Positions 2,950 to 64,000 of a stretch of 64,000 nt of DNA are shown in pieces. A program made the translations under genes and the position numbers. Under the pieces are notes generated by a model. It searched no databases and was not told where the DNA came from. It worked only from the letters and a program-made list of their open reading frames with translations. The first letter of the stretch is position 1; the number at the start of each line of letters is the position of its first letter. Origin of the DNA: Erythrobacter sp. (lineage in GTDB: Bacteria; Pseudomonadota; Alphaproteobacteria; Sphingomonadales; Sphingomonadaceae); NCBI GenBank assembly GCA_027311945.1, contig DAICXZ010000030.1:248001-312000 (forward strand). The letters run 5' to 3'.

Positions 2950-2966
2950 GGGCAGGGCACAAACGA

Positions 2967-3012
2967 ACGGGCCGCTTACAGTCATCGCATATTTGCAGCG
3001 TCAGCGGCCCGT
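2967..3012. repeat. Perfect 10-bp inverted repeat with 26-nt loop
   Basis: ACGGGCCGCT (2967-2976) and AGCGGCCCGT (3003-3012) are exact inverted copies 18 bp after the M16 stop. There is no following T-run and the loop is long, so it is not a classic Rho-independent terminator. It may still form a transcript-end or attenuator structure. Confidence 0.45.
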
Positions 3013-3133
3013 CGTATCGCATGTAACCTTTGCCACCGCGCGCTGGCGGGCCTATGGCGGACACTTCCTCGCACAATTTGCTTGAATTGTTGGCGCATGC
3101 CGGGCGCGAGGACGGCAATGGCAGGAAAGACAC

Positions 3134-4513
3134 GTGGCACACAACTGGACCCCCGAGAGCTGGCGCGGTGATCGCTTCACAGCGAAGCATATCCCGCATT
3201 ACGAGGATCAGGCGGCATTGACCGCTGCCGAGCAGACTCTGGCCGGATATCCCCCGTTGGTCTTTGCGGGCGAAGCGCGCGCGCTGAAGGCTGAGCTGGG
3301 CAAGGCGGCGGCAGGCGAAGCCTTCCTGCTGCAGGGCGGCGACTGTGCCGAGAGCTTTGCCGAGTTCAGCCCCAACAACATCCGCGACACCTTCCGCGTG
3401 ATCCTGCAGATGGCGGCGGTGCTGACCTTCGCCAGCAAGATGCCGGTGGTGAAGGTGGGCCGCATGGCCGGGCAGTTCGCCAAGCCGCGCAGTGCGCCGA
3501 CCGAAACGCAGGGCGACATTACCGCGCCGAGCTACTTCGGCGACATCATCAACGGGATCGACTTCGGCGTGGAAAGCCGCGCCAACGATCCCGAGCGCAT
3601 GATCCGCGCCTACAGCCAGTCGGCGGCGACGCTGAACCTGCTGCGCGCCTTCGCAGGCGGCGGCTATGCCAACCTGCGCCAGGTGCATCGCTGGACGCTC
3701 GACTTCATGGACCGCAGCCCCTGGGCCGAGCAGTACCAGTCGATCGCAGACCGGATCGGCGAGGCGCTCGACTTCATGGAAGCCTGCGGAATCGACACCG
3801 AGAACGAGCCCGCGCTCAAGGCCGCCAGCTTCTACACCAGCCACGAGGCGCTGCTGCTTCCTTACGAGCAGGCGTTGACCCGGCAGGATTCTCTGACCGG
3901 CGAGTGGTTTGACTGCTCGGCGCATATGCTGTGGATCGGCGACCGCACACGCTTCATAGATTCGGCCCATGTCGAGTTCCTGCGCGGTGTGAACAACCCG
4001 ATCGGCGTGAAGTGCGGTCCGAGCCTTGCTCCGGACGATCTGCTGGCCATGCTCGACACGCTGAACCCCGGCCGCGAAGCCGGGCGCATCACGCTGATCA
4101 GCCGCTTCGGCCACGAGAAGGTCGAAGCCGGGTTGCCCCCGCTGGTCCGCGCCGTGGCGCGCGAAGGCCATCCGGTGGTGTGGAGCTGCGACCCTATGCA
4201 CGGCAACGTCGTGAAGTCCGATTCGGGCTACAAGACGCGTCCGTTCGAGCGCATTCTCTCCGAGGTGAAGGGCTTCTTCGCCGTCCACCGCGCCGAGGGC
4301 ACGCACGCTGGCGGCATCCATGTCGAGATGACCGGGCAGGACGTGACCGAATGTACCGGCGGTGCCGTGGCGATCACCGATGAGGGGCTGGCCGATCGCT
4401 ATCACACCCATTGCGACCCGCGTCTCAACGCCGCGCAGTCGCTCGAGCTGGCCTTTACGCTGGCCGAAATGCTCAACCTCGAGCTTACCGAGCGCCAGCG
4501 CGACGCGGCCTGA
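3134..4513 (+). CDS. Class II 3-deoxy-7-phosphoheptulonate (DAHP) synthase
   Basis: This enzyme condenses phosphoenolpyruvate and erythrose-4-phosphate, the first step of the shikimate pathway, in the cytoplasm. The 459-residue product has the class II hallmarks: [14 protein letters not shown] (Cys71), [25 protein letters not shown] (His356), [15 protein letters not shown] (Glu398) and HTHCDPRLN (Asp428). These four residues correspond to the known Cys/His/Glu/Asp metal ligands of the family. The start is GTG (product [10 protein letters not shown]), chosen because homologues begin with this W-x-P-x-S-W-R segment. It appears monocistronic, with a strong terminator just downstream. No N-terminal regulatory extension like that of the mycobacterial enzyme is seen. 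Confidence 0.96.
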
Positions 4514-7723: not shown

Positions 7724-9109
7724 ATGGCGGCGGACAATGCCACCGGAGAGAAATTCGACGTAGCGAAGTTCATCGACGAACGACCGGTGGGTGCGCGGGA
7801 GTACTTCCTGCTCGCCATTGTCTCGGTGATCCTGTTCCTCGACGGGTTCGACATGTATTTCCTCGGCAAGATCCTCCCCGCGATTGCCGAGGGGCTTGGC
7901 GGGACGCCGGTCGATATGCAGCCGGTGGTGAACTACCAGCAGATCGGCATGGCCATCGGGGCCTTCATCATGCCGCCGCTGGCCGACCGCATCGGGCGCA
8001 AGCCGGTACTAGCGTTGTGCCTTGTCGGTTTCGGATCGCTGTCGCTGTGGGCGGCTTTCTCCGACGGGTTCACGATGCTGGCGGTGCTGCGGGGCATTTC
8101 GGGCATCTTCTTTTCCGCAATGCTTCCGGTAGGCCTCGCTTTCCTCTCCGAAGCGACCCCCAAGGCGCGCCGGGCGCTGTTCATGTCTATTGCGCTGGTG
8201 TGCTTTTCCGGCGGCAATCTCGGCTCTGGCGTAATGGTGGCCTGGTTCCTCGAAGACCTTGGCTGGGAAGGGTTCTTCATTGTTGGCGGCATCGTACCGC
8301 TGCTGGCGCTGCTCCTGCTGTTGCTGGTGCGCGAGAGCCTCGCCTTCCGCGTCAATCGCAACCCGGCCGATCCGCGCATCCCGGCGCAGATACAGGCGCT
8401 TGATCCGCAGACGCCGATTCCCGCTGGTGCGGTGTTCCATATGGGCGATCAGGACGAGGTCAGCCCGCTTGGCCCGCTGGCGATGTTCGGCAAGCGCTAT
8501 CTGGTGCAGACCGTGCTGCTGTTTTCGCTGTGCTTCTTCTCGCTCGGCAATATCGCGCTGCTGGCTAACTGGATGGCCACCTTCATGCAGGAGCTGGCCG
8601 GCCTCCCGATCGAGACCTTCGCTTTCTATATGATCATCGGCTATTTCGGCGGCGCGACCGGCACGCTGGTGATGGGCTGGCTGATGGACCGGGTGAACCC
8701 ATACTGGCTCATCACGGGCTATTTCCTGGTCGATGCCGTGGCGATCTTCATGATCGGGCAGATTCCCCCACAAGCCGCTGTGGCCTTTGTAACCGCGCTG
8801 ATCGTGTGGAACTTCTGTCAGGTCGGCGGGCAGACCGGAATCAACAACATGGCGACGATGGCCTATCCGCCCGAGATGCGCAGTTCGGGCATCGGCTGGG
8901 CGGGCGGCTTCGGGCGACTTGGCGGGATCGTGTTCCCGGCGCTTGGCGGGCAGGCGCTGGCGCTGGGACTGAGCTTGCCGCTGATCATGACGGTCACTGC
9001 GGTGCCCGCTCTGGTGATCGCGGCGCTGGTCTTCGTGCTCGGCGTAGTAAATGGCGGCAAGATCGGCGGGCGGTCGAAGATCGCGAAGCCGGCAAGCCAA
9101 GTTTGCTAG
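7724..9109 (+). CDS. MFS transporter, AAHS/metabolite:H+ symporter-like
   Basis: The 461-residue protein has the usual 12 hydrophobic helices and an extended hydrophilic loop between the two halves (about residues 205-245). The TM1 motif FLDGFDMYFLG resembles the DGFD signature of aromatic-acid/H+ symporters. Motif A is LADRIGRK (86-93). A GGGAGAGG ribosome-binding site precedes the ATG. It should sit in the inner membrane and import an organic acid or related metabolite. The substrate cannot be read from sequence. The gene ends tail-to-tail with the VOC gene, the two stop codons overlapping. Confidence 0.88.
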   Translation: MAADNATGEKFDVAKFIDERPVGAREYFLLAIVSVILFLDGFDMYFLGKILPAIAEGLGGTPVDMQPVVNYQQIGMAIGAFIMPPLADRIGRKPVLALCLVGFGSLSLWAAFSDGFTMLAVLRGISGIFFSAMLPVGLAFLSEATPKARRALFMSIALVCFSGGNLGSGVMVAWFLEDLGWEGFFIVGGIVPLLALLLLLLVRESLAFRVNRNPADPRIPAQIQALDPQTPIPAGAVFHMGDQDEVSPLGPLAMFGKRYLVQTVLLFSLCFFSLGNIALLANWMATFMQELAGLPIETFAFYMIIGYFGGATGTLVMGWLMDRVNPYWLITGYFLVDAVAIFMIGQIPPQAAVAFVTALIVWNFCQVGGQTGINNMATMAYPPEMRSSGIGWAGGFGRLGGIVFPALGGQALALGLSLPLIMTVTAVPALVIAALVFVLGVVNGGKIGGRSKIAKPASQVC

Positions 9110-53789: not shown

Positions 53790-55463
53790 CTAGCGCGGTG
53801 TGAGCAGGTTCGGATCGATGAACTGGCGGACGATGCCAGGCCCCTGGAACCACGCGCCCACCCAGGCCCCGCCGCCGCCGTTGAACCATTCGGCCCGAAA
53901 CGCATGGCGCCCCGCTTCCATTTCGGCGCTGCCCGCCGCCATTACCACGCCGTGGTCGCCATCGTTATCGACCACGGTTCTCCCGTCGATGTAGAGTTTG
54001 CTGCCGTCGTCGGAGGCGAGATAGAAGTCGTACTTGCCGGTGGTGGGGATATCGATGAAGCCATCGAAGGTGACCGCCACCGATTGATCGCGCGGCAGGT
54101 CCAGCCCGGCGAGCGAGACCTCGTGGGTCACGCCGCTCACCGCCGGTTCGAGCCCATCGAAATTCGGCAGGCGGACGGGCTGTTCGGGCAGCAGATAGGC
54201 TTTCCAGCTGAGGCCGCGCGGCTCGGCCGAAGGCTCCAGCACGCGGAAATAGGCGGTGGTGGGCGCGCTCGCCTGCGCGCCGTCGACGAACAGCGCGGTG
54301 CGCACCACGGTGGTTTGTTCGATCGTCACCGGCCCTTGATAGAGCGGCGAAGTGGCGGCGGGGTTCGAGCCGTCGAGCGTGAAGCGCACTTCTCCAATCG
54401 GATTGGGGTTGGCGATGGTCAGCTCGGCCGGGCCATCGGTGAACAGGCCGCCCGCCGGATCGTTGCCTTGGGCCAGCGGCGAAATGACCGGCGCGGCATA
54501 GGCGCTGCTCAGGTGGTAGGTCTGCGCGGGCATCTCCTCGCTTGCCAGCACGGGGCGCACCGGGCGGCCGATCCAGGCATAGGGAATATCAAGGCCGAGC
54601 AGGAAGGCGGCGGTGGCGGGCGTATCGTAAGTATTTACCGGCAGCGTCAGGGTGCGGCCCTCGGCGACGCCTGCGCCCGCAGCGATCCACGGAATTTCCA
54701 GCTCGGCCAGTGAATCGCCGCCATGCCCCTTGCCGACGCCGCCATGGTCGGCGGTCACGATGATCACTGTCTCATCGGCAATCCCCGCATCAATCACCGC
54801 CTGCCGGATCATGCCGATTTCGGCATCGGCGCTTGCCACCGAGGCATAGTATTCGGGGGTGCCATGACCGTAGGTGTGCCCCTCGTGGTCGGGCTGGTCG
54901 AGGTGCATCATCAGGAAGTTGGGGCGCTTGGCCTTGATATAGTCGACCGCCTGCGCGGTGGTCTCGGCATGGCCCGGACGGTTCGCATCGAAGTCGACGA
55001 AGCGGTGATCGTAGAGATTGCCGAAGCCGTCCCAATCGTAGATCGAGCCAACTTCCCATTCGGGGTGCTGCTCGGTCAGGAGCTGGAAGATCGAGGGATA
55101 GAAGTTGCCCGATCCGGTGACCATGGCGGGGAAGTTGAACTCGCCCACGCGCCAGTCGTTGCTGGTGACGCCGTGCTGCTCCGGCCCCGCGCCGGTGAGG
55201 ATCGAGGCCCAGTTGGCTGAGCTGGAGGTGGGCAGCACGCCGCGCGCGTTCATGGTCGAGGTGCCCTTGGCCATCATCTCGTCGATCACCGGGGTATCGG
55301 CATGGCGGATACCGTCCGGGCTCATCGCATCGACCCCGATCACGATCACATGACGCACGACCGGCGCATCGTCACGATCCTGCGCCAAGGCCGTTCCGAC
55401 GAGGCCGAGGTTGGCGGCGGCGCCAAGGAGCGTGGCAATGAGGGCGGTGCGCGGGGAGGGCAT
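53790..55463 (-). CDS. Secreted alkaline-phosphatase-superfamily hydrolase with chitobiase-C and PA14-like modules
   Basis: The 557-residue protein has a signal peptide (GTALAQD, about residue 28). A nucleotide pyrophosphatase/alkaline-phosphatase catalytic domain spans about 36-310: VIGVDAMSPDG (metal Asp), LPTSSSANWASILTG (nucleophile Ser), LDQPDHEGH and TADHGGVGKGHGG (metal Asp/His). A CHB_HEX_C-like stretch follows (about 340-410, FTLDGSNPAATSPLYQGPV), then a PA14-like domain (about 440-555, DLYLASDDGSKLYIDG-like). The superfamily includes phosphodiesterases and the phosphonoacetate hydrolase PhnA. An operator shared with the GntR/phnZ and TBDR genes implies a role in phosphonate or phosphoester release outside the cytoplasm. 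Confidence 0.88.
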   Translation of the reverse strand: MPSPRTALIATLLGAAANLGLVGTALAQDRDDAPVVRHVIVIGVDAMSPDGIRHADTPVIDEMMAKGTSTMNARGVLPTSSSANWASILTGAGPEQHGVTSNDWRVGEFNFPAMVTGSGNFYPSIFQLLTEQHPEWEVGSIYDWDGFGNLYDHRFVDFDANRPGHAETTAQAVDYIKAKRPNFLMMHLDQPDHEGHTYGHGTPEYYASVASADAEIGMIRQAVIDAGIADETVIIVTADHGGVGKGHGGDSLAELEIPWIAAGAGVAEGRTLTLPVNTYDTPATAAFLLGLDIPYAWIGRPVRPVLASEEMPAQTYHLSSAYAAPVISPLAQGNDPAGGLFTDGPAELTIANPNPIGEVRFTLDGSNPAATSPLYQGPVTIEQTTVVRTALFVDGAQASAPTTAYFRVLEPSAEPRGLSWKAYLLPEQPVRLPNFDGLEPAVSGVTHEVSLAGLDLPRDQSVAVTFDGFIDIPTTGKYDFYLASDDGSKLYIDGRTVVDNDGDHGVVMAAGSAEMEAGRHAFRAEWFNGGGGAWVGAWFQGPGIVRQFIDPNLLTPR

Positions 55464-55485
55464 GGGAGAAGTCCTATGTTGGAAA

Positions 55486-55499
55486 TTGGTCTAGACCAA
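55486..55499. promoter_or_regulatory. GntR-type operator upstream of the hydrolase
   Basis: TTGGTCTAGACCAA is a perfect 14-bp palindrome, 22 bp before the start codon. It matches the TGGTCTAGACCA core typical of HutC-subfamily GntR regulators and the copy at 63585-63598. Confidence 0.75.
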
Positions 55500-55537
55500 A
55501 TAGCCGCGCATTCTTACAATTCGGCGACGATGCGGTG

Positions 55538-56473
55538 CTATTGTTCCGCCACGAGGTGGTGCAGCACGCGCTTTTGCAGCACGAGCATGGCGTCAGCGCC
55601 GTTGGTGCGCATCACCAGCCCTTCGGCAAGCGGGGCGGCGGCCTGTTCGCAGGTCCTCGCCATCCCGGTAAAGGCAGGGCGCGCGCGCGGATTGTCGCCG
55701 TGCATGGCGCAGAGCTGCCGCCAGTCGCGCACGAAGTCGCGCAGGTGGCGGGTCAGAGCGGCGACCTGCGGTTCGGCTTCGGCGGAGGCGGGGGCCAGTT
55801 CCGCGATCCAGTCCTCGACAAGCCATTGCACCTCGGCAGGCGGCATGATCGCTGGGCGCAGGCTCGTCTCAGTCAAAAGCTTGGGGCTGGCCTCGGGGCG
55901 GAAGGGCAGAGTGCGCCATTGGCCGCGCGGCGGTGGCGGGGCGCAGGCGAAGTTCCAGAAGGCTGAGGTGCCGGTGGTATCGGCGACGAGGTGGATACGT
56001 TCGGTAGGCGAGGGGTTCTCGACATGGTGGCGGCGCCAGTTGTCGAAGATCCATGCTTCGCCCGCGGCCATGTGGACGCTCTCGCCGTCGCAGTGGAAGC
56101 GCACTTCCTCGCGGGTGACGACGGGCACATGCATGCGCACGCGGGTATGCCAGTGGTAGTTGATGTCGGCGTGTTCGGGCACCTCTGCACCGGGGGCGAG
56201 GCGCATCAGCCGCGACCGGCTCCACACCACGCCGAAGCTCGCCAGCACCTGCCGCGCATAGGGCATCTGCGCCAGCCAGCGGGTGGGGAGCATCTGGCCG
56301 TAGACACCGTCGTTCTCCTCGCCGTGGGCGGTGATCAGGCGGGCGGCGGAATTGCCGGCCACGCGGTCGGGGTGGGGTGCCCATGCTTGCGGAGGGAGCG
56401 CGGCGACTTCCTCCTGCAAACGCGCCGCATCGAACAGGATCGGCAACTGGTAGAAGGGCTGCTCAAGCCGCAT
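55538..56473 (-). CDS. Aspartyl/asparaginyl beta-hydroxylase-like dioxygenase with C-terminal extension
   Basis: The product is 311 residues from the ATG at 56473. A double-stranded beta-helix of the Asp/Asn hydroxylase type is suggested by His101-x-Asp103 (PEHADINYHWH), His149/150 (RRHHVENPS) and an Arg in ERIHLVADT, the Fe(II)/2-oxoglutarate pattern. About 110 extra residues form a helical C-terminal part. The start overlaps the end of the TPR-sulfotransferase gene by 11 bp. This homologue of a protein-modifying enzyme has no visible peptide substrate nearby. The frame opens further upstream but homology begins at MRLEQPFYQ. Confidence 0.88.
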   Translation of the reverse strand: MRLEQPFYQLPILFDAARLQEEVAALPPQAWAPHPDRVAGNSAARLITAHGEENDGVYGQMLPTRWLAQMPYARQVLASFGVVWSRSRLMRLAPGAEVPEHADINYHWHTRVRMHVPVVTREEVRFHCDGESVHMAAGEAWIFDNWRRHHVENPSPTERIHLVADTTGTSAFWNFACAPPPPRGQWRTLPFRPEASPKLLTETSLRPAIMPPAEVQWLVEDWIAELAPASAEAEPQVAALTRHLRDFVRDWRQLCAMHGDNPRARPAFTGMARTCEQAAAPLAEGLVMRTNGADAMLVLQKRVLHHLVAEQ

Positions 56474-58385
56474 TGCGCAAGTCTCGGTGGCGGGTGAGCG
56501 CATCGCCGAGCGCGGCGCGCAAGGGGCCGAGATGGGGCGCATAGTCGTCCACCCGCTCGATTCCCGCCCGGTTGATCGGCTGGCGGACCTGCTCGGCCGA
56601 CGGGGTGCGCACGCTGCGCTCGGTGCGGTGAAAGGCGAGGCAGGCCGGATCGAAGGGCAGGTCGCAATGGGTAAGCAGGCGGCGGACTTCGCCTTCGAGG
56701 TCAGCCACGAGATCCTCGTAATGAACGCGCAGCACGCGGCCCGGCAGCGCCTCGTCCCAGTGCTCCATCATGGCGAGATAGGCGCGGATATGGCCCGCGA
56801 TATGGTCGACGCCATAGGTGAACTCCTGATTGGAGGTGCCGAACAGCTGGCGCAGGTTGGCAAGCGCACAGGAGAGCGGCTCACGCCTTATGTCGATGAT
56901 CGTGGCACGAGGAAGGAGCGTGTGGATCAGGCCCAGGTGCCAGAAATTTTTGGGCATCTTATCGATGAAGAACGGGCGGCCCAGCCGGCGATGGACGCGG
57001 GTTTCGGCCATGTAGCCTTCGCCCAGCTGCGCGGCCTGCGCCCGGCTGAGCGCGGCCAGCGCCTCGGGCGTGCGGGGGAGGCCGCAGGCGGGGTCTTTTC
57101 CGCATAGCTCGGCGGCGATGCGGCCCATGGTGGTCAGTTCATGAGTGCCTTCCACCGCGTGATGCGAGGCGAGGATCTGTTCGACGAGCGTCGAGCCCGA
57201 GCGCGGCAGGCCGACCACGAAGATCGGCGCGCGGTCGCTGTGGCCCCAGCCTTTGCGCCCGGCGAACAGGGCAGGGCCTTGCGCTGCGGCGATGGCGGCG
57301 GCGCGTTCCTGCGCGGTGCGGGGGCAATAGGTGCTGGCCCCGCGGCGCAGGTCGTTACCGCGCTGGAAGTGGTGCCAGGCGCGGGCGAAATCGCGCACGT
57401 CCTCGGCGGCCTTGGCGAGTGCGAAGTCGAGGTAGACGCGGTCCATGTCGGTGGTGTCTTGCGCGCTGTATAGCTGTTCCATCTGCGCGATATCGGCGGG
57501 CGAATAGCGGACTGTCTTGAGGTTGGCGAGGCTGAACCAGGCGACCGCATAGCCGGGCCTTGCCGCCAGCGCGGCGCGGTAGGCTGCCACGGCTTCCTCG
57601 GTTCGTCCCACCGTCTTCAGCGCATTGCCGCGAAACAGGTGCAGTTCGGCGGCCTCCAGCCCCTCGGCGGGGATATCGGCGATCAGTTCGGCATAGAGGT
57701 CGATCACTGCCTCGTGGTCGCCGAGAGCGACCGAGGCGGCGGCATATTGCTTGCGCCAGTTGCGGTTTTCCGGCTGGTGCCGCAGCAGGAATTCGGCGTG
57801 GAGGCGCGCTTCGGCCGGCTCCTGCTGCCGCAGCAACAGCACGGAAAGATCGAACCGCGCTGCGAGGAAAGTGCCATCGCGCGAAATCAGTGCGCGCAGG
57901 ATGCGCTCGGCCTCGGCGTCGTCTTGCCCACTTTCCATAAGTACACGCGCGAGCAGGTGAGCGGCACCGAGATTGCCTTCGTCGCGGGCGAGGTAGTCGC
58001 GAAGGATCGCGGCGGCGCGCGCGTGGTCGCCATCGGTGTGGAGCGCATTGGCCATGACCACCTCGCGCGGCAACTGCGCCAGCTTTTCGGCGCGCTGGCG
58101 AGCCTCGGCGGCCCCGCGCTGATCGCCGGTGCGATGGAGCAATTGCGCCAGCATGTCCCAGCAGGCGGGCAGGGCAGCGTTAAGCCGCAAGGCCTCGTTC
58201 AACGCGGCGATGGCGCCCTGCCCGTCGCCGAGGTGAAGGAGGCAATGGGCGCGCTCCTGATAGAGGCGGCTGAATTGCGGGTGCGCAGAAGCCTGTTGGT
58301 CGAGCAGGCGCAGCGCCTCGGCGAAGCGACCCTCCTTGCGCAGGCCCATCGCCGTGCGCAGAATGTCCTCGCGAGCGGCGCTCAT
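56463..58385 (-). CDS. TPR-repeat sulfotransferase
   Basis: The 640-residue protein has an N-terminal half with repeated TPR helices (about 1-340; GRFAEALRLLDQQASAHPQFSRLYQERAHCLL is unit 1). The sulfotransferase domain has the 5'-phosphosulfate-binding loop FVVGLPRSGSTLVEQIL (about 386-402) and a 3'-phosphate motif REPLSCALANLRQLF. It transfers sulfate from PAPS. Such TPR fusions often act on proteins or large glycans, the TPR part gripping the acceptor. The gene overlaps the upstream oxygenase by ATGA and is overlapped by the downstream one, so all are made together. Confidence 0.92.
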   Translation of the reverse strand: MSAAREDILRTAMGLRKEGRFAEALRLLDQQASAHPQFSRLYQERAHCLLHLGDGQGAIAALNEALRLNAALPACWDMLAQLLHRTGDQRGAAEARQRAEKLAQLPREVVMANALHTDGDHARAAAILRDYLARDEGNLGAAHLLARVLMESGQDDAEAERILRALISRDGTFLAARFDLSVLLLRQQEPAEARLHAEFLLRHQPENRNWRKQYAAASVALGDHEAVIDLYAELIADIPAEGLEAAELHLFRGNALKTVGRTEEAVAAYRAALAARPGYAVAWFSLANLKTVRYSPADIAQMEQLYSAQDTTDMDRVYLDFALAKAAEDVRDFARAWHHFQRGNDLRRGASTYCPRTAQERAAAIAAAQGPALFAGRKGWGHSDRAPIFVVGLPRSGSTLVEQILASHHAVEGTHELTTMGRIAAELCGKDPACGLPRTPEALAALSRAQAAQLGEGYMAETRVHRRLGRPFFIDKMPKNFWHLGLIHTLLPRATIIDIRREPLSCALANLRQLFGTSNQEFTYGVDHIAGHIRAYLAMMEHWDEALPGRVLRVHYEDLVADLEGEVRRLLTHCDLPFDPACLAFHRTERSVRTPSAEQVRQPINRAGIERVDDYAPHLGPLRAALGDALTRHRDLRNAA

Positions 58386-58999
58386 CGGCTGGCCCCGCTA
58401 GTGAGGAAGGGGGCGAGCCAGTCCGGCTCGGGCTGGTCGGCGTCGAAATATTCGAAGATCAGGTGAACCCGCTCGCTCGTGCCCTCGTTGCGGACCCAGT
58501 GCGGGGCGAGGTTGTTCACCTCCACCGCCTCTCCGACCGCGAAGTGATGCTCCGCCCCACCGAAATGCGACACCACCTGTGGGTTGGTGATGAGCGGAAC
58601 GTGGATCTTGTGCGGCCACTTGGCGGCCACCAGCGCATCGACATGTGGCTTGATCACGCCGCCCGCAGGCATCCGCGCCAGCATCACGCGTGGGAACACC
58701 CCGCGCGCATAGCCATAGGGCGCCACCGCCGCCTCCAGCACCGGCTCGAGCAAGCCGCGCCAGTAAGCCCATGCGGGCCGATCGTGCGAGAAACGCCAGT
58801 CGCGCCCGGAATCGACGAAGCGGAACACGATGTGCTGCGTCGCATCGAGCGCTTCGAACCGGTTGGGCTTGGCCGCGTTTTCCGCCACCCAAGCCGCCTC
58901 GGGCACCTGCCGCACGGCGGCCACCAGCCGTTCCACATCGACCGAGCCGAGCAAGCGCACGCCGGTAGTCTTGCGCGGATTGGGGGCGGGCAAGTTCAT
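58382..58999 (-). CDS. Aspartyl/asparaginyl beta-hydroxylase-like dioxygenase
   Basis: The 205-residue protein has His119-x-Asp121 (KPHVDALVAAKWP), distal His167 (LAPHWVRNEG) and an Arg in SERVHLIFEYFD, giving the full Fe(II)/2-oxoglutarate set. It is the minimal single-domain type of this hydroxylase family. It begins four bases inside the upstream sulfotransferase gene (ATGA) and overlaps the next by ATGA. The family is known to hydroxylate Asp/Asn or related substrates; this one's acceptor is unknown. Confidence 0.9.
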   Translation of the reverse strand: MNLPAPNPRKTTGVRLLGSVDVERLVAAVRQVPEAAWVAENAAKPNRFEALDATQHIVFRFVDSGRDWRFSHDRPAWAYWRGLLEPVLEAAVAPYGYARGVFPRVMLARMPAGGVIKPHVDALVAAKWPHKIHVPLITNPQVVSHFGGAEHHFAVGEAVEVNNLAPHWVRNEGTSERVHLIFEYFDADQPEPDWLAPFLTSGASR

Positions 59000-59634
59000 C
59001 GCGAACCGTCGAAAGTGTAACCGAACAGCGCGAGGTCGGCGGCATAGCGCCGCGCCACGGCATCGGCGAGACGCTGGTCGTAATAACGGCGATAGTCGCC
59101 ATGGCGGCTCGTATTCACTCGTTCGAGCGCCTGCGAGGCGATGCCGATCCGCGCGCAGATTGCATCGTAAGAGGCTTGCATGTCCTCCACCCGGCCCACC
59201 TCGTCGGCGAGCAGGCTGTGGCCGTCGTCGTCCACCAAAAGGCTCGCCTGCGGGCGGAAAAGGATGTGGTCGGGGTTCGGATGCTCGAAAGCGAAGCGGT
59301 ACAGCGCCTCGCGCGGGCTTCGCTGAAAAAGGTCGGTCTGGCGCAACATGAACGCGCAGTAGGAGACAAATCGGTCAAACGGATTGCGCACGAAGGCGAA
59401 TTTCACATAGCCTGCAAACGCCTCTTCGCCGAGGAACGGGCGAACCTGCCGCAAGGCGAAATGGCCATGGCCCACCTCTGCCAGCTCGGGCCAGGGAAAC
59501 TTGCGCTGCACGAACAGGCCGACCTGTTCGCAGTCCTCCTCGCCCATATGTTCGCGCAGCGCCCGGCGCACCGCATGGGTGCCGGTTTTCGGCACGGCGG
59601 CGAAAATGAAGCGGTGGCGGTGCGAAATAATCAT
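58996..59634 (-). CDS. Sulfotransferase family 2 (heparan/chondroitin-sulfotransferase-like fold)
   Basis: The 212-residue protein has the 5'-phosphosulfate loop AAVPKTGTHAVRRAL (about 12-26) and the 3'-phosphate segment KFAFVRNPFDRFVSYCAF, typical of Sulfotransfer_2. There is no signal peptide or membrane helix, so it should be cytoplasmic. Members sulfate sugars, lipids or peptides. It starts 77 bp after the TBDR stop and overlaps the next gene by ATGA, starting the four-gene modification block. Confidence 0.9.
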   Translation of the reverse strand: MIISHRHRFIFAAVPKTGTHAVRRALREHMGEEDCEQVGLFVQRKFPWPELAEVGHGHFALRQVRPFLGEEAFAGYVKFAFVRNPFDRFVSYCAFMLRQTDLFQRSPREALYRFAFEHPNPDHILFRPQASLLVDDDGHSLLADEVGRVEDMQASYDAICARIGIASQALERVNTSRHGDYRRYYDQRLADAVARRYAADLALFGYTFDGSR

Positions 59635-59656
59635 CGGTGGCAGTCAAACGAGGTGA

Positions 59657-59688
59657 GCGCGGCCTCGCCGCAGATGGCAAGGCCGCGC
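59657..59688. terminator. Stem-loop between TBDR and modification genes (minus strand)
   Basis: GCGCGGCCT (59657-59665) and AGGCCGCGC (59680-59688) pair exactly with a 14-nt loop, 23 bp after the TBDR stop. No T-run follows, so partial read-through is expected and the downstream genes would be expressed at a lower level than the receptor. Confidence 0.55.
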
Positions 59689-59710
59689 CCGATCACTCAT
59701 CCAGTCGCGA

Positions 59711-62500
59711 TCAGAACTTGTAGTTCACGCCGCCCAGAATGGTCGTACCGCTCTGGTTCTGGTTGTAGAGGTAGCGGTTCTGGCCCCAGAACTGCGTATC
59801 CTTCTCATTGGTCAGATTGATGGCATTCACGTTGATCTGCAAACGCTCGGTCACGTTGAAGAAGGCCGAGGCATCGAAGTAGGTCGATCCCTCGAAGCCG
59901 CGTGTGCTGGCGCTCATCGGATCTTCGTTCTTGCCGGTGTACCAGCGGCTGCGATAGCTGACTGATCCGCGCAGGCCCCAGCGCTCGGTCTCGTAGTAGA
60001 TCGTGCCGTTGGCGCCGGTGTCGGAAAAGCCGGTCAGCTCCTCGTCGGCGTCGATATAGGTGAAGTTGGCGATCACCCCGAACCCGTCAAGCGGGGCGGG
60101 CAGGAACGACAGCTGCGACTGCGCGGCCAGCTCGATCCCGGTCAGCGAGCGGTCGCCATCGATGTTCACGGGCATCGTGAACTCGCTGACGATGGTGTCG
60201 GCGGTGGCACCCGGAATGGTGGTGAAGGGCACGCCGGTTTCGCTGAACGCGATGTTCTCGATCACATCGTTGCTGATGAAGTTGGTGATGATCTTGTGGA
60301 ACGCACCCGCCGACAGCAGCCCGACATCGCCGAAGTAGTATTCGACCGCGAAATCGAAGGTGGTATCGGTGAAGGGCTTGAGGTTCGGGTTGCCCCGGCT
60401 GACGGTGATTTCACCGCTGTCCTCGTTCTGGAAGGCGCTGCCTTCGGCCGCCATCGAGCCGAGGCTCGGACGGTTGAGGTTCTTGGTGGCGGCGAAGCGC
60501 AGCAGCACGTCGTCGGTCACTTCGAGAACGGCGTTCATCGCGGGCAGGACACCCGAATAGCTGCCTTCTACCTCGGAGGTGCCGAGATAGGCATAGCTGT
60601 CGCCCTGGATCCAGCCGACGCTCTTGGTGTCGGTGCTGTAACCGCGCAGGCCCACGTTGCCGCGCAGGCGCATGCCGCCGACTTCGGTGTCCCAGTCAGC
60701 CTGAAGGTAGCCCGAGATCGTGTCTTCGGTGGTTTCGTAGACGTTCTCGATATCCTGCAGCGCGCCGCCGGTGCCATCGGTGTTGGGCTCAAGGCGGTGG
60801 TATTCGTCGTAACGGTCGAAGGCGTCGGCATAGTTGCCGATCAGCCATGAGCCGAACTCGTTGGTGAACACATCGCTCACGCCGCTGACCGAATCGCCAC
60901 GCATCTTATCGGTCGTGCCGTTGACGTTGGAGTCATAGAACAGGTCGATGCCCTGCTGGCGGAACGAGTGGTAGGCACCGCCGAGGCGGATCGTCCACAC
61001 CGGGCTCGCTTCCCAGGCAAGGTTGGCTTCGCCCTCGTAAAGCTCGCTCTCGTTGTTGAACGCGCGATAGTAGAAATTGTCGAGCGCGTAGCTGCCGGGA
61101 TCGGTCGCATCCCAGCCCGCATAGCTGAACGTGGCCGAACGGCCATCGGTGCCGTAGTCGGCGATCATGTCGCCGCGCGCACGCATGTAGAACTTGTCAT
61201 CATACGGCGTGTCGTAGGTCGACTTCTCCCAGCCGACATGGCCGTCGAAGGTCAGCGTGTCGGTGACATTCCACTCGTTGGTAAGTGCGACCTGCCAGAA
61301 GCGGTTTTCGTTGCGCGAGCGGCGATGCTCGGTGCCGAAGCCGACCCCGGAAACATCGGCATAGGTGACGTAGCCGTTATCGTCCCACGCGATGTCGTTG
61401 ACGACAGAGCCGGTCTGGAAGTTGGCGGGCCAGGGGTCCGAAGCCGCGCCGTCGATGATGATCGAGCCGCGCGAGTTGAGCGGGCGGGTGGCGAGGTGCA
61501 GCTCGTTGCGGTCGGTGGTGAACTGGCCATGCAGCACGTCGAGCGTGAACAGCGCATCGTCGCTCGGCTGCCACTGCACCGCGGCGGTGATGCCGAGGCG
61601 TTCCTGTTCTGCGTTCCACGAGGACAGGCGGTTGCCGTCGGCGAAATAGAAGGTGTTGTCCGGGTCAAGCAATTCGGCCTGCTGCGCCGCCGAGAGGTTC
61701 GAGATGTCGACGCCCTTGTCGATCAGCTCCTGCATCTGCGTGCCGTTGACCGTGCTGTAGTTATAGGTGTTGTGGCCTTGCTCGGTGGTTTTGCGCTTGC
61801 TCCAGGCGACCGAGACGGCAATCCCGAAGGTGTCGCCCCAGTTCTGGCTCAGCAGCGCTGCAATGCGCGGCTGGGCATCCTCGGTATAGGTGTTGGTGCC
61901 GAGCTTGAGCGCAATCGCGCCGTTGATCCCGTCGTTGTAGTCAAACGGTTTGGCGGTGAAGAGGCCCACGGTGCCGGCCATGCCGCCTTCCTTCTGCGCC
62001 GCCTGGTAGGTCTTTTCGACCTCGACCCGGCTGAACAGTTCGGAGGCGAAGATATTGAAATCGAAGGCACGGTCGCGCGAGCGCTGGCCGCGGCTATCCT
62101 GCGCCGAATCGACGTTGCCGAGCACTTCCATGCCGTTGAGCTGGACGCGGGCGAAGTCGGGGCCGAGGCCGCGCAGCGAGATGCGCCGGCCTTCGCCGGC
62201 CTCGCGGTTGATCTGTACGCCGGGCAGGCGCTGCAGCGATTCGGCAAGGTTGAGATCGGGGAACTTTGCCATGTCCTCGGCCACGATCACGTCGATGCGG
62301 ATGTTCGAGTCGCGCTTGGCGTCGAGCGCGTCGGAGAGCGACTGGCGGAAGCCGGTGACGACGATGGCGTCATCGGCGCTGGCGGCGCTATCCTGCGCAA
62401 AAGCTGCGGCCGGGCACAGCAGGGCCATGGCCGATGCGGTGGTGAACAGGACATTTCGGTAGCTCGGGCGGGTGGCCCGAGAGGCATTGCAACCGTTCAT
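59711..62500 (-). CDS. TonB-dependent receptor, TonB-Xanth-Caul-like, of the phosphonate regulon
   Basis: The 929-residue receptor has a signal peptide (AAAFAQDS, about residue 36). It carries AIVVTGFRQSLSDALDAKRDSN, LAESLQRLPGVQINREAGEGRRISLRG-type plug and a barrel ending TTILGGVNYKF. This TIGR01782-like subclass normally takes carbohydrate-like or complex ligands. A GntR-type operator lies 24 bp before the start and a strong AGAGGGG ribosome-binding site follows. Downstream lie the sulfotransferase/hydroxylase block and the secreted hydrolase. The likely cargo is a phosphonate or phosphoester glycoconjugate. This rests on the shared operator, not on the receptor sequence. Confidence 0.93.
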   Translation of the reverse strand: MNGCNASRATRPSYRNVLFTTASAMALLCPAAAFAQDSAASADDAIVVTGFRQSLSDALDAKRDSNIRIDVIVAEDMAKFPDLNLAESLQRLPGVQINREAGEGRRISLRGLGPDFARVQLNGMEVLGNVDSAQDSRGQRSRDRAFDFNIFASELFSRVEVEKTYQAAQKEGGMAGTVGLFTAKPFDYNDGINGAIALKLGTNTYTEDAQPRIAALLSQNWGDTFGIAVSVAWSKRKTTEQGHNTYNYSTVNGTQMQELIDKGVDISNLSAAQQAELLDPDNTFYFADGNRLSSWNAEQERLGITAAVQWQPSDDALFTLDVLHGQFTTDRNELHLATRPLNSRGSIIIDGAASDPWPANFQTGSVVNDIAWDDNGYVTYADVSGVGFGTEHRRSRNENRFWQVALTNEWNVTDTLTFDGHVGWEKSTYDTPYDDKFYMRARGDMIADYGTDGRSATFSYAGWDATDPGSYALDNFYYRAFNNESELYEGEANLAWEASPVWTIRLGGAYHSFRQQGIDLFYDSNVNGTTDKMRGDSVSGVSDVFTNEFGSWLIGNYADAFDRYDEYHRLEPNTDGTGGALQDIENVYETTEDTISGYLQADWDTEVGGMRLRGNVGLRGYSTDTKSVGWIQGDSYAYLGTSEVEGSYSGVLPAMNAVLEVTDDVLLRFAATKNLNRPSLGSMAAEGSAFQNEDSGEITVSRGNPNLKPFTDTTFDFAVEYYFGDVGLLSAGAFHKIITNFISNDVIENIAFSETGVPFTTIPGATADTIVSEFTMPVNIDGDRSLTGIELAAQSQLSFLPAPLDGFGVIANFTYIDADEELTGFSDTGANGTIYYETERWGLRGSVSYRSRWYTGKNEDPMSASTRGFEGSTYFDASAFFNVTERLQINVNAINLTNEKDTQFWGQNRYLYNQNQSGTTILGGVNYKF

Positions 62501-62523
62501 GAGAAACCCCTCTTGTTGGCAAA

Positions 62524-62537
62524 CTGGTCTGAACCAG
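62524..62537. promoter_or_regulatory. GntR-type operator upstream of the TBDR
   Basis: CTGGTCTGAACCAG matches TGGTCTAGACCA at 10 of 12 core positions with perfect outer CTGGT/ACCAG arms. It is 24 bp from the TBDR start codon. Confidence 0.65.
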
Positions 62538-62697
62538 ATGCTCGACTAGCGGCGCTTGATAACAGTTGCGTGACAGGATGACGGTCTGATGCTGCGTCGC
62601 AGCGATTTTGTCCAGGTGCGGCGAAATGGCCGCAGTGGCGGCTCCGCGAGATTGCGCGGTTGAACCGATTGTGCGCCCGTTGTGGCGAGCTGAGGGG

Positions 62698-63453
62698 CTA
62701 GCGAACGCGCAGGTCCACGTTGATTTGCACGGCATCGTGGCGCCAGTATTCGTGATCGTATTCGACCACCCGGCCATGACCGTCGTAGCTCACGCGCTGC
62801 AAGGCGAGGCCGGGCAGGCCCGACTTCTGGCGCAGGTCGACCGCCTCGTCACCGGTCAGCGCGCAGGGCTGCATCGAGATCTGGTTGCGCGCGACGGTAA
62901 TGCCGAAATTGCGCTTCAGGATCGCGGTGAGCGAGGTGTTGAGGTCGAACTCTATGAGGCCCGGTGTGATGGCAGCATCGACCACCAGTTTTTCGACCAG
63001 CACCGCCCGCCCGTCGACCGAGCGCAGGCGGCGAATGTGATGCAGCGGGGCGCCGAGCGGGCGCGCGAAAATGTCCGAAAGCAGCGGGTCTGCGGGGATT
63101 GTGGCGGTGCTGATGGTGTGCGTGCTGGGCACGCGGCCCTGCGCCTCGACGTAGGACATGAAGCCTTCCCAGCGCGTCGGATCATAGACCACCGGCGGCG
63201 GCGAGACGTACCATCCGCTGCGATCGCGACGGAAGATCGCGCCCTCGGCTTCGAGCAAGAACAGCGCCTCGCGAATGGTGCCGCGGGCAAGGGCGAATTC
63301 GCCTTGCAGCTGCCGTTCCGAGGGCAACTTGTCACCCGGCTTGAGATCGCCCGCCGCGATGCGCGCGGCAATCCCGTCGCGCAGGCCCAGATACTGGCGG
63401 CTTTCCGCCGTGTCGGCCGGGCTCGCCCCGGTAGTATCCGCCGCTTTTTCCAT
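62698..63453 (-). CDS. GntR family regulator, HutC/UTRA subfamily (PhnF/PhnR-like)
   Basis: The product is 250 residues from the ATG at 63453 (a GTG at 63471 adds six). The winged helix (about 20-90) reads LRDGIAARIAAGDLKPGDKLPSERQLQGEFALARGTIREALFLLE. A UTRA ligand-binding domain (about 95-245) includes PLHHIRRLRSVDGRAVLVEKLVV and ALQRVSYDGHGRVVEYDHEYW. HutC-type regulators bind TGGTCTAGACCA-like palindromes. Three such sites lie in this window: by the hydrolase, the TBDR, and between this gene and phnZ, which implies autoregulation. Adjacency to phnZ favours a phosphonate ligand. Confidence 0.92.
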   Translation of the reverse strand: MEKAADTTGASPADTAESRQYLGLRDGIAARIAAGDLKPGDKLPSERQLQGEFALARGTIREALFLLEAEGAIFRRDRSGWYVSPPPVVYDPTRWEGFMSYVEAQGRVPSTHTISTATIPADPLLSDIFARPLGAPLHHIRRLRSVDGRAVLVEKLVVDAAITPGLIEFDLNTSLTAILKRNFGITVARNQISMQPCALTGDEAVDLRQKSGLPGLALQRVSYDGHGRVVEYDHEYWRHDAVQINVDLRVR

Positions 63454-63584
63454 GCTTCCTGTTAGCCTCACTACCCTGACCCGACAACCGGTGCGGGGCC
63501 TGTCTTTGCAACTTGGAAAGCCGGAATCGCGAGAAAATTGCCGGACTTGGGAAAAATGGATGCGTCACGCCGCATTATCTGCAA

Positions 63585-63598
63585 TTGGTCTAGACCAT
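63585..63598. promoter_or_regulatory. GntR-type operator overlapping the phnZ start
   Basis: TTGGTCTAGACCAT contains the perfect 12-bp palindrome TGGTCTAGACCA (63586-63597), whose last A is the first base of the phnZ ATG. It lies in the divergent GntR/phnZ region and so may control both genes. Confidence 0.72.
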
Positions 63599-64000
63599 GT
63601 TTGCGAAAGAGACAAATTGCTCCACCGCTGCTGCGGAGGCTATCGCCCTGTTCGTGCGTTTGGGCACCCTGCATTATGGCGAAAAGGTCAGCCAGCTCGA
63701 CCACGCGCTGCAATGCGCGCACAATGCGCGGCTCGCGGGTGAGGGAGAGGCGATGATCGCGGCTGCGCTGCTGCATGATATTGGTCACCTGTTGCACCAC
63801 GAGGGTGAGGACGCGGCCACACGCGGGATCGATACCCGCCACGAGATCACCGGCGCGACCTGGCTGCGCGAACGGTTCGGCCCCGAGGTGAGCGAGCCGG
63901 TGCGGCTCCACGTCGATGCCAAGCGCTATCTCGCTCTGCGCCAGCCCGGCTATGTCGGGAGCCTGAGCCCGGCCTCGCTCGAAAGTCTCGCGTTGCAGGG
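63597..64000 (+). CDS. phnZ: PhnZ-like HD-domain phosphonate oxygenase (partial, runs off the window)
   Basis: The frame from ATG 63597 is open to the window end (134 codons). It shows QLDHALQCAHNAR (His36), the HD motif ALLHDIGH (His60, Asp61, His64), RHEITGATWL (His82) and LHVDAKRYLALRQPGYVGSLSPASL (His105, Asp107). This order matches PhnZ, the mixed-valent diiron enzyme that cleaves 2-amino-1-hydroxyethylphosphonate to glycine and phosphate, and TIGR03276-like phosphonate HD proteins. The C-terminus is missing, and a PhnY-type hydroxylase may follow beyond the edge. No ribosome-binding site is visible and the start lies on an operator. Confidence 0.88.
   Translation, partial: MFAKETNCSTAAAEAIALFVRLGTLHYGEKVSQLDHALQCAHNARLAGEGEAMIAAALLHDIGHLLHHEGEDAATRGIDTRHEITGATWLRERFGPEVSEPVRLHVDAKRYLALRQPGYVGSLSPASLESLALQ

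Follow-up and report, generated by a model that had tools for sequence, protein, structure and literature searches.

A predicted PhnR-like regulon for scavenging ester-bound phosphonates in Erythrobacter sp., with a receptor-linked hydroxylase/sulfotransferase cassette

Towards the end of a 64,000-nucleotide stretch of the genome of Erythrobacter sp. (GenBank assembly GCA_027311945.1, contig DAICXZ010000030.1, positions 248,001 to 312,000; hereafter the window, G000:C10:248001-312000 of this 3.04 Mb genome), genes for a PhnZ-like HD protein and a GntR-type regulator lie close to those for a TonB-dependent receptor (TBDR), two AspH-type hydroxylases, two sulfotransferases and a predicted secreted hydrolase (53790..64000). 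The question that this locus raises is whether such dissimilar genes serve one pathway, and what the hydroxylases and sulfotransferases might do beside phosphonate catabolism. A preliminary description had read the genes as a single regulon that takes up a phosphonate-bearing molecule, frees the phosphonate and cleaves it with PhnZ, and its account of gene order and domains was borne out by a Pfam scan. The answer proposed here, with a probability of about 0.6, is that a PhnR-like GntR regulon would scavenge ester-bound phosphonates of the 2-aminoethylphosphonate (AEP) type, together with a receptor-linked hydroxylase/sulfotransferase module.

A shared operator motif in two bacterial families

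HutC-type regulators of the PhnR/PhnF kind use TGGT-N4-ACCA operators. The three palindromes reported earlier in the window are present, two with perfect 12-bp cores and one degenerate. The first (TTGGTCTAGACCAA, 55486..55499) lies 22 bp upstream of the hydrolase start. The degenerate one (62524..62537), which is CTGGTTCAGACCAG on the gene strand and reads CTGGTCTGAACCAG on the forward strand, keeps 10 of 12 core positions and lies 23 bp upstream of the TBDR start. The third (TTGGTCTAGACCAT, 63585..63598) is placed between the GntR and HD genes, 113 bp upstream of the GntR start as annotated here, and overlaps the HD ATG. A further copy (TTGGTATAGACCAG, L016:3606-3619, in the flank beyond the window) is found 24 bp upstream of the start of a DUF5690 transporter gene of the major facilitator superfamily (MFS).

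The conservation of these sites was followed by footprinting in two bacterial families, that of the window and the Caulobacteraceae. Identity floors were, among others, 60% for the TBDR, 50% for phospholipase C (PLC) and the phosphodiesterase and 40% for HD; matches had to start within 40 residues of the query start and upstream stretches to reach at least 120 bp. These filters excluded several cassette TBDRs (L171, L172, L174, L178, L187, L193 and others), so that the 26 tested are part of those retrieved. In the first run, where a site was at most one mismatch from TTGGWMTAKWCCAA and shuffle means were 0.0, a site was found upstream of the closer type of PLC gene in 16 of 17 cases, of phnR in 18/31, HD in 16/34, the transporter in 11/28, the cassette TBDR in 12/26, the hydrolase in 3/13 and the gene for a flavin adenine dinucleotide (FAD) oxidoreductase in 2/29. 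Conversely, the inner cassette genes had none (tetratricopeptide repeat (TPR)-sulfotransferase 0/40, AspH1 0/42, AspH2 0/39, ST2 0/42), and neither did PhnX (0/26) or other, non-cassette TBDRs (0/4). This run counts the genome's own HD and PhnR genes (L016, L017) and the Caulobacter hydrolase (L113, L199) twice. The second run left out L113 and, for HD, PhnR and PhnX, the copies in L016. Here the looser pattern YTGGW-N4-WCCAR found a site at 21 of the 26 TBDRs and 7 of 12 hydrolases (shuffle means 0.1 and 0.05), and again none at the inner cassette genes; overlapping stretches may still count some genes twice, for example phnR of G234. The form YTGGTYCANACCAR stands 16-27 bp upstream of the start in 20/26 tested cassette TBDRs, the window's CTGGTTCAGACCAG included.

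The motif also stays with these genes where they are unlinked. The cassette does not adjoin phnR in four of the five cassette genomes of the same family, and the TBDR site is still kept when the cassette lies far away on the same contig (G069), at 38 kb (G138) or on another contig (G193 and G288). The cassette TBDR of G288 has as its neighbour an HD gene that carries a site of its own. Furthermore, the hydrolase gene of Caulobacter sp. HMWF025, on a different contig from phnR, has CTGGTCTATACCAA 67 bp upstream of its start. When that genome was searched for TTGGTCTATACCAA, a pattern picked after the hydrolase site had been seen, two places came up at one mismatch, namely the hydrolase site and another at the phnR locus; of the six places at two mismatches, one again lies at that phnR locus. 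The operator is thus conserved before the same genes, also when these are apart. A single regulon that includes the TBDR and a hydrolase, as had been suggested, is supported by the gene content of relatives and by the conservation of their sites; in it the regulator gene, receptor, hydrolase, transporter and HD gene would share one predicted operator motif.

Within the genome itself the scan was less telling. The 12-bp core with up to three mismatches matches 32 times in the window, against a shuffle mean of 12, and only the hydrolase and HD/GntR sites are perfect. In the whole genome, the 14-mer shows no enrichment at up to three mismatches (101 places, 117 in the reversed control), and only the places at zero or one mismatch are informative, these being the hydrolase and HD/GntR sites alone. 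Five more occur at exactly two mismatches. One precedes the MFS gene 2.2 kb beyond the window; with open reading frames (ORFs) judged by eye, three others are inside ORFs of unrelated loci and the fourth (L003) is between CobA-like and glycosyltransferase-like genes. The TBDR site differs at 4 of 14 positions and is therefore missed by such a scan; the support for this site is comparative.

Catabolic genes and ester-cleaving hydrolases

The GntR/UTRA regulator (62698..63471, minus strand, 257 aa) has TIGR03337 (phnR) as its best NCBIfam model. Divergent from it, the gene of a predicted PhnZ/TmpB-like HD oxygenase starts on the plus strand at 63597 and runs through 64000 past the end of the window (L016:998-1567; 189 aa complete). 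Its matches in the PDB include TmpB (1e-27) and PhnZ (3e-26), and its loop reads xYGE in all 12 aligned proteins, one residue shorter than the YIGE of PhnZ. The preliminary description had proposed reading the flank for a PhnY or aminotransferase gene; neither adjoins, and a phosphonatase and an FAD oxidoreductase were found instead. PhnX (L016:1591-2391, minus strand) scores 323.7 bits with TIGR01422, over the cut-off of 220, and the FAD oxidoreductase (L016:2384-3520, minus strand) 390.9 bits with TIGR03364, over 285.1; the latter family may correspond to PbfD, the M1AEP/AEP oxidase, which would oxidise N-methyl-AEP or AEP to phosphonoacetaldehyde. The DUF5690 MFS transporter follows on the plus strand (L016:3644-4975).

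The classical PhnWX pathway was rejected, since a search at E 1e-5 finds no PhnW (TIGR02326) in this genome. Scans of the cluster proteins gave no recognisable PhnY*/TmpA, a result to which no genome-wide search was added. The proposal that PhnZ cleaves the carbon–phosphorus (C-P) bond is retained insofar as a PhnZ-like HD protein is present and amended insofar as it is not the sole enzyme: as the flank adds PhnX, the FAD oxidoreductase and the transporter, C-P cleavage does not depend on the HD protein alone.

These genes keep company in relatives. Of 298 same-family genomes, nine carry a phnR-like gene (E 1e-40), this one included. In the stretches retrieved, the other eight all have HD, FAD and transporter genes, the HD gene of G288 being at the cassette locus rather than the phnR locus. 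PhnX is seen in six of the eight, but not in G008 or in G193, where the contig ends.

With regard to the hydrolase (53790..55463, minus strand, 557 aa), the protein belongs to the nucleotide pyrophosphatase/phosphodiesterase (NPP) family, with PF01663 (111.9 bits, gathering cut-off 23), PA14 and CHB_HEX_C_1 domains; among solved structures it comes closest to a PA14 protein and to NPPs. The phosphonoacetate hydrolase PhnA model (TIGR02335) gives 30 bits, far below its cut-off of 407.55. The predicted secretion of the hydrolase rests on an N-terminus that looks, by eye, like a signal peptide. Relatives of 59-71% identity occur in 10 of 36 Caulobacteraceae cassette loci, the one in Caulobacter sp. 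HMWF025 (62%) was the only one found in a scan of the named collection, and the remaining 297 genomes of the window's family gave none at E 1e-40.

In seven of the eight other same-family phnR genomes (not G008), the retrieved stretches also include a divergent gene of a 712-aa type, of the kind that adjoins HD in relatives. It had been labelled a TBDR from its length, a label rejected on Pfam and NCBIfam evidence, which places it in the phosphocholine-specific PLC family (TIGR03396, 723.5 bits, cut-off 580.25; over the cut-off in the copies scanned). The operator precedes the PLC or the HD gene in all eight. The closer PLC type and the hydrolase are each found in 10 of the 36 Caulobacteraceae loci and never in the same one, as if the two were interchangeable; PLC copies at 38-40% identity were left out of the site counts. 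The phosphocholine-specific PLC of the genome under study is on a different contig and has no operator, and was accordingly excluded from the regulon. From these enzymes we infer that the food consists of phosphonate esters, for example phosphonolipids or phosphonate-bearing glycans.

In the proposed mechanism, the PhnR-like regulator would control the receptor, the hydrolase (often a PLC in relatives), the transporter and the regulator/HD promoter through one operator. The exported hydrolase would free a phosphonate head group or fragment, which the TBDR and the DUF5690 transporter would import; the FAD enzyme may then convert AEP or N-methyl-AEP to phosphonoacetaldehyde for hydrolysis by PhnX, and the HD enzyme would cleave 1-hydroxylated phosphonates.

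Several results weigh against this reading. Five of the 26 tested cassette TBDRs have no site, and L185 has only a distant one; even with the looser pattern, 7 of 12 hydrolases have one; and the stricter form, in the second run, is found at HD in 16/33 and at the transporter in 12/28. The regulator falls under the TIGR03337 cut-off (248.2 against 296.75 bits), which none of the 298 same-family genomes passes; phnR is nevertheless the best of the 24 families that it matches. The HD protein, at 210.0 bits, is 4.6 short of the TIGR03276 Phn-HD cut-off of 214.6, which is still its best model. Lastly, nine of the 36 Caulobacteraceae cassette loci have no core phosphonate gene nearby; four of the nine are on stretches shorter than 16 kb, and one of the nine, L182, carries the hydrolase.

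The window's regulator is 72% identical to those of the Caulobacteraceae loci L179 and L180, against 58-61% within its own family; the same holds for HD (60-64% to L176, L179 and L188, against 45-54%) and PhnX (67% over 236 aa to L179, against 54-60%). As all three are closest to one Caulobacteraceae group, these identities, taken apart from any tree, suggest that the locus came from the Caulobacteraceae side. Past the transporter (L016:5105-11346) are another TBDR, a PhoD-like alkaline phosphatase and a Dpp7-like peptidase, the latter two scoring under their cut-offs, and no operator was found upstream of the genes there.

The receptor cassette and its candidate target

The TBDR (59711..62500, 929 aa; TIGR01782, 630.8 bits, cut-off 310) is the first gene of a five-gene cassette, all on the minus strand. 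It is followed by ST2 (58996..59634, 212 aa; Sulfotransfer_2, PF03567, 44.1 bits, cut-off 22), AspH1 (58382..58999, 205 aa), the TPR-sulfotransferase (56463..58385, 640 aa; PF13469, 162.9 bits, cut-off 27, with N-terminal TPRs) and AspH2 (55538..56542, 334 aa), whose ORF as read overlaps the TPR-sulfotransferase gene by 80 bp. The two AspH proteins are Asp_Arg_Hydrox 2-oxoglutarate-Fe(II) oxygenases (PF05118, 54.1 and 43.0 bits, gathering cut-off 22.6). All four enzymes keep what we take to be their catalytic motifs unchanged across 38-40 orthologues: GLPRSGSTL of the TPR-sulfotransferase and the His/Asp positions of AspH2 in 38, and PKTGTH and FVRNPF of ST2 in 40.

ST2 reaches at least 65% identity in 37 of 299 Caulobacteraceae genomes, a figure that includes one split gene; loci were read in 36 of them, HMWF025 being treated separately. 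All five genes are present in 32 of the 36, the other four loci being at contig ends or on short contigs, and 27 of the 36 have core phosphonate genes (regulator, HD, PhnX, FAD or transporter) in the retrieved stretch. A PhnX gene is present in 24 of the 25 genomes with the cassette and in 50 of 174 others (Fisher p 6e-11; 199 genomes, taken as G298-G496 of the 299, with matches listed from G298 to G495), a p-value that is only a guide because the genomes are related. In HMWF025 a single row holds transporter, regulator, HD, PhnX, FAD, AspH2, TPR-sulfotransferase, AspH1, ST2 and TBDR. Within the window's own family, phnR is found in five of six genomes with ST2 at 62% or more, three of the five being of one genus, against 4 of 292 others. 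By contrast, two of 15 TPR-sulfotransferase loci outside the cassette (L078 and L079 among L078-L092) have phosphonate genes; FAD matches spanning about 40 residues in L082 and L089 were set aside. In L078 and L079, from G134 and G063, HD, FAD, PhnX and the transporter adjoin another TBDR/TPR-sulfotransferase pair; neither locus has the operator motif, and neither genome has a phnR-like match at E 1e-40.

The cassette appears to be linked to the receptor. Four phnR genomes of the family have no ST2 match at E 1e-15 (G008, G164, G182, G234), and all of them keep the HD gene along with the FAD and transporter genes and another TBDR, which makes the cassette dispensable for C-P catabolism. In G114, AspH and ST2 homologues lie near a very different TBDR, and the phosphonate genes searched for were not found at that locus. 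TPR-sulfotransferase relatives (E 1e-60) are present in 170 of the 298 same-family genomes, directly behind a same-strand TBDR in 24 of 25 non-cassette loci, and a TBDR-like gene is near in all 20 stretches read (with a gap of 2.9 kb in L081). Owing to these three lines of evidence, the four modification genes look like a predicted receptor-linked module rather than added catabolic steps. They may still belong to a new pathway, as the preliminary description suggested. The pairs cover several TBDR subfamilies across the family (L042-L092, with pairing checked in the read loci only).

As to the target, the nearest solved relatives of the TPR domain include the TPRs of O-linked N-acetylglucosamine transferase. 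Moreover, relatives of AspH1 and ST2 (44% and 36%) were found in a lasso-like cluster of G044 (L106:5055-19501), with Asn_synthase, PqqD, a further sulfotransferase, ABC (ATP-binding cassette) genes, a family 8 glycosyltransferase and a nucleotidyltransferase. A candidate precursor gene is seen there at 7955-8098. By pattern search, 9 of 13 neighbourhoods of AspH1 relatives contain a sulfotransferase-like motif. Because of the TPR domain and the lasso-like cluster we infer that the cassette may hydroxylate and sulfate a polypeptide, perhaps the receptor. The two hydroxylases and then the two sulfotransferases would act in the cytoplasm, before export, most likely on the cassette TBDR; this step is less certain than the rest of the mechanism.

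The evidence is divided here too. The nearest solved sequence to AspH2 is L-proline cis-4-hydroxylase (E 4e-7), and this likeness to a free-proline enzyme allows for a small-molecule target. None of 13 distant AspH1 relatives has a TBDR match within 1.5 kb (L149-L161), and a relative of 64% identity stands in G057 with no other query gene within 20 kb. No shared residue pattern marks a modification site in TBDRs linked to TPR-sulfotransferases; the search gave five scattered columns in unlike subfamilies, and no site is claimed for that reason. The AspH1 structure model (mean predicted local distance difference test score, pLDDT, 69) has matches among proline and prolyl hydroxylases as well as among Asp/Asn hydroxylases, and so does not decide the target. 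That the TBDR itself is hydroxylated and sulfated in the cytoplasm, by enzymes related to those that tailor ribosomally synthesised and post-translationally modified peptides (RiPPs) and under phosphonate control, and that sphingomonad TBDR/TPR-sulfotransferase pairs form a general class of sulfated receptors, is a tentative proposal, more apt to fail than to hold. In G114, two related small proteins (L105:1726-2004 and 2840-3178) with signal-peptide-like starts and a CKxxPxTGTRxRTKVCH motif lie between the TPR-sulfotransferase and AspH2, near the TBDR; they have no Pfam match and are possible modification substrates.

Other explanations of the cassette were weighed against that of a receptor-linked module. 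The AspH oxygenases could be the missing partner of the HD enzyme, hydroxylating imported phosphonate at C1 as PhnY*/TmpA do, with the sulfotransferases acting on the phosphonate or a carrier. PhnZ/TmpB-type HD oxygenases do pair with a hydroxylating dioxygenase, according to the review PMC10574752. The lack of a recognised PhnY* in the cluster and the resemblance of AspH2 to a small-molecule hydroxylase would fit such a role. The explanation nevertheless appears unlikely, as the HD gene persists in the four genomes without ST2 and the G114 homologues lie near a TBDR with none of the phosphonate genes sought; we also know of no role for sulfotransferases in PhnY*/PhnZ-type chemistry. A little less probable again is a modified envelope lipid, by LpxO-like 2-hydroxylation followed by sulfation, for phosphonolipid use or phosphate shortage. 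The match of AspH2 to LpxO (NF033391) that speaks for it has an E-value of 2e-4 and, at 20.3 bits, is far under the cut-off of 500; furthermore, 32 of the 36 loci read show the cassette tied to a single TBDR gene, and the TPR domain and RiPP-cluster relatives better fit a polypeptide. Lower still ranks the idea that the cassette product is a modified peptide or small metabolite, which would carry the phosphonate and enter through the TBDR. The AspH1 and ST2 relatives in the lasso-peptide-like cluster of G044 are in keeping with it, yet the Pfam scan recognised no cyclase, PqqD or exporter among the cassette proteins, and the five genes, each abutting or overlapping its neighbour, offer little space for a precursor gene (very short ORFs were not searched for). 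The weakest explanation, that the palindromes arose by chance beside unrelated adjoining operons, could draw on the counts of the 14-mer, no commoner than in the reversed control, and was rejected as very improbable, given footprints in two families, unlinked loci included, with shuffle means at or near zero.

Comparison with known systems

The regulon outlined here would cover a whole phosphonate-scavenging chain, in which an outer-membrane receptor and a hydrolase share an operator with C-P enzymes, and it ties a five-gene receptor cassette to phosphonate use in two bacterial families. Two questions become testable in culturable Caulobacter relatives, namely which phosphonate esters are used and whether the TBDR is chemically modified before export. 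No published description of the receptor cassette or of its phosphonate tie was found in open-licence PMC text, and the same text gave no literature on TBDR genes with SapC or tryptophan halogenase neighbours. PhnX, the FAD enzyme, the HD oxygenase and GntR control are already known elements.

AEP phosphonatase clusters with Pbf FAD enzymes likewise bring together PhnX, an FAD oxidoreductase, a transporter and a GntR-type regulator. According to the review PMC10574752 (see also the research paper PMC12366243), PbfD-type FAD enzymes can convert AEP and N-methyl-AEP to phosphonoacetaldehyde and may replace a missing PhnW. The present locus differs from such clusters in having no PhnW match in its genome at E 1e-5 and in adding the HD protein, a regulated phosphoester hydrolase, the TBDR and the hydroxylase/sulfotransferase cassette. 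Members of the PhnY*/PhnZ and TmpA/TmpB pathways are among the PDB matches of the HD protein, which here has TIGR03276 as its best model, just under the cut-off, a loop shorter by one residue and no PhnY*/TmpA recognised in the cluster. With PhnR/PhnF regulators the window's regulator has in common the GntR and UTRA domains, the best match to TIGR03337 and the form of the operator; it differs in its score below the phnR cut-off and in a regulon that takes in a receptor, a hydrolase and a cassette.

In a table of PMC10040529, neighbouring numbers are given to lasso B2, sulfotransferase, aspartyl beta-hydroxylase, PqqD and asparagine-synthase clusters. The likeness to lasso-like clusters lies in the AspH1 and ST2 relatives of L106, with their Asn_synthase, PqqD and ABC genes, and the difference in a window cassette in which precursor, cyclase and exporter are unrecognised. 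TBDR genes may also adjoin genes for modification enzymes such as SapC and tryptophan halogenase. As in those loci, tailoring enzymes without an evident signal peptide stand behind a TBDR gene; here, however, they are hydroxylases and sulfotransferases, and they are linked to a predicted phosphonate regulon.

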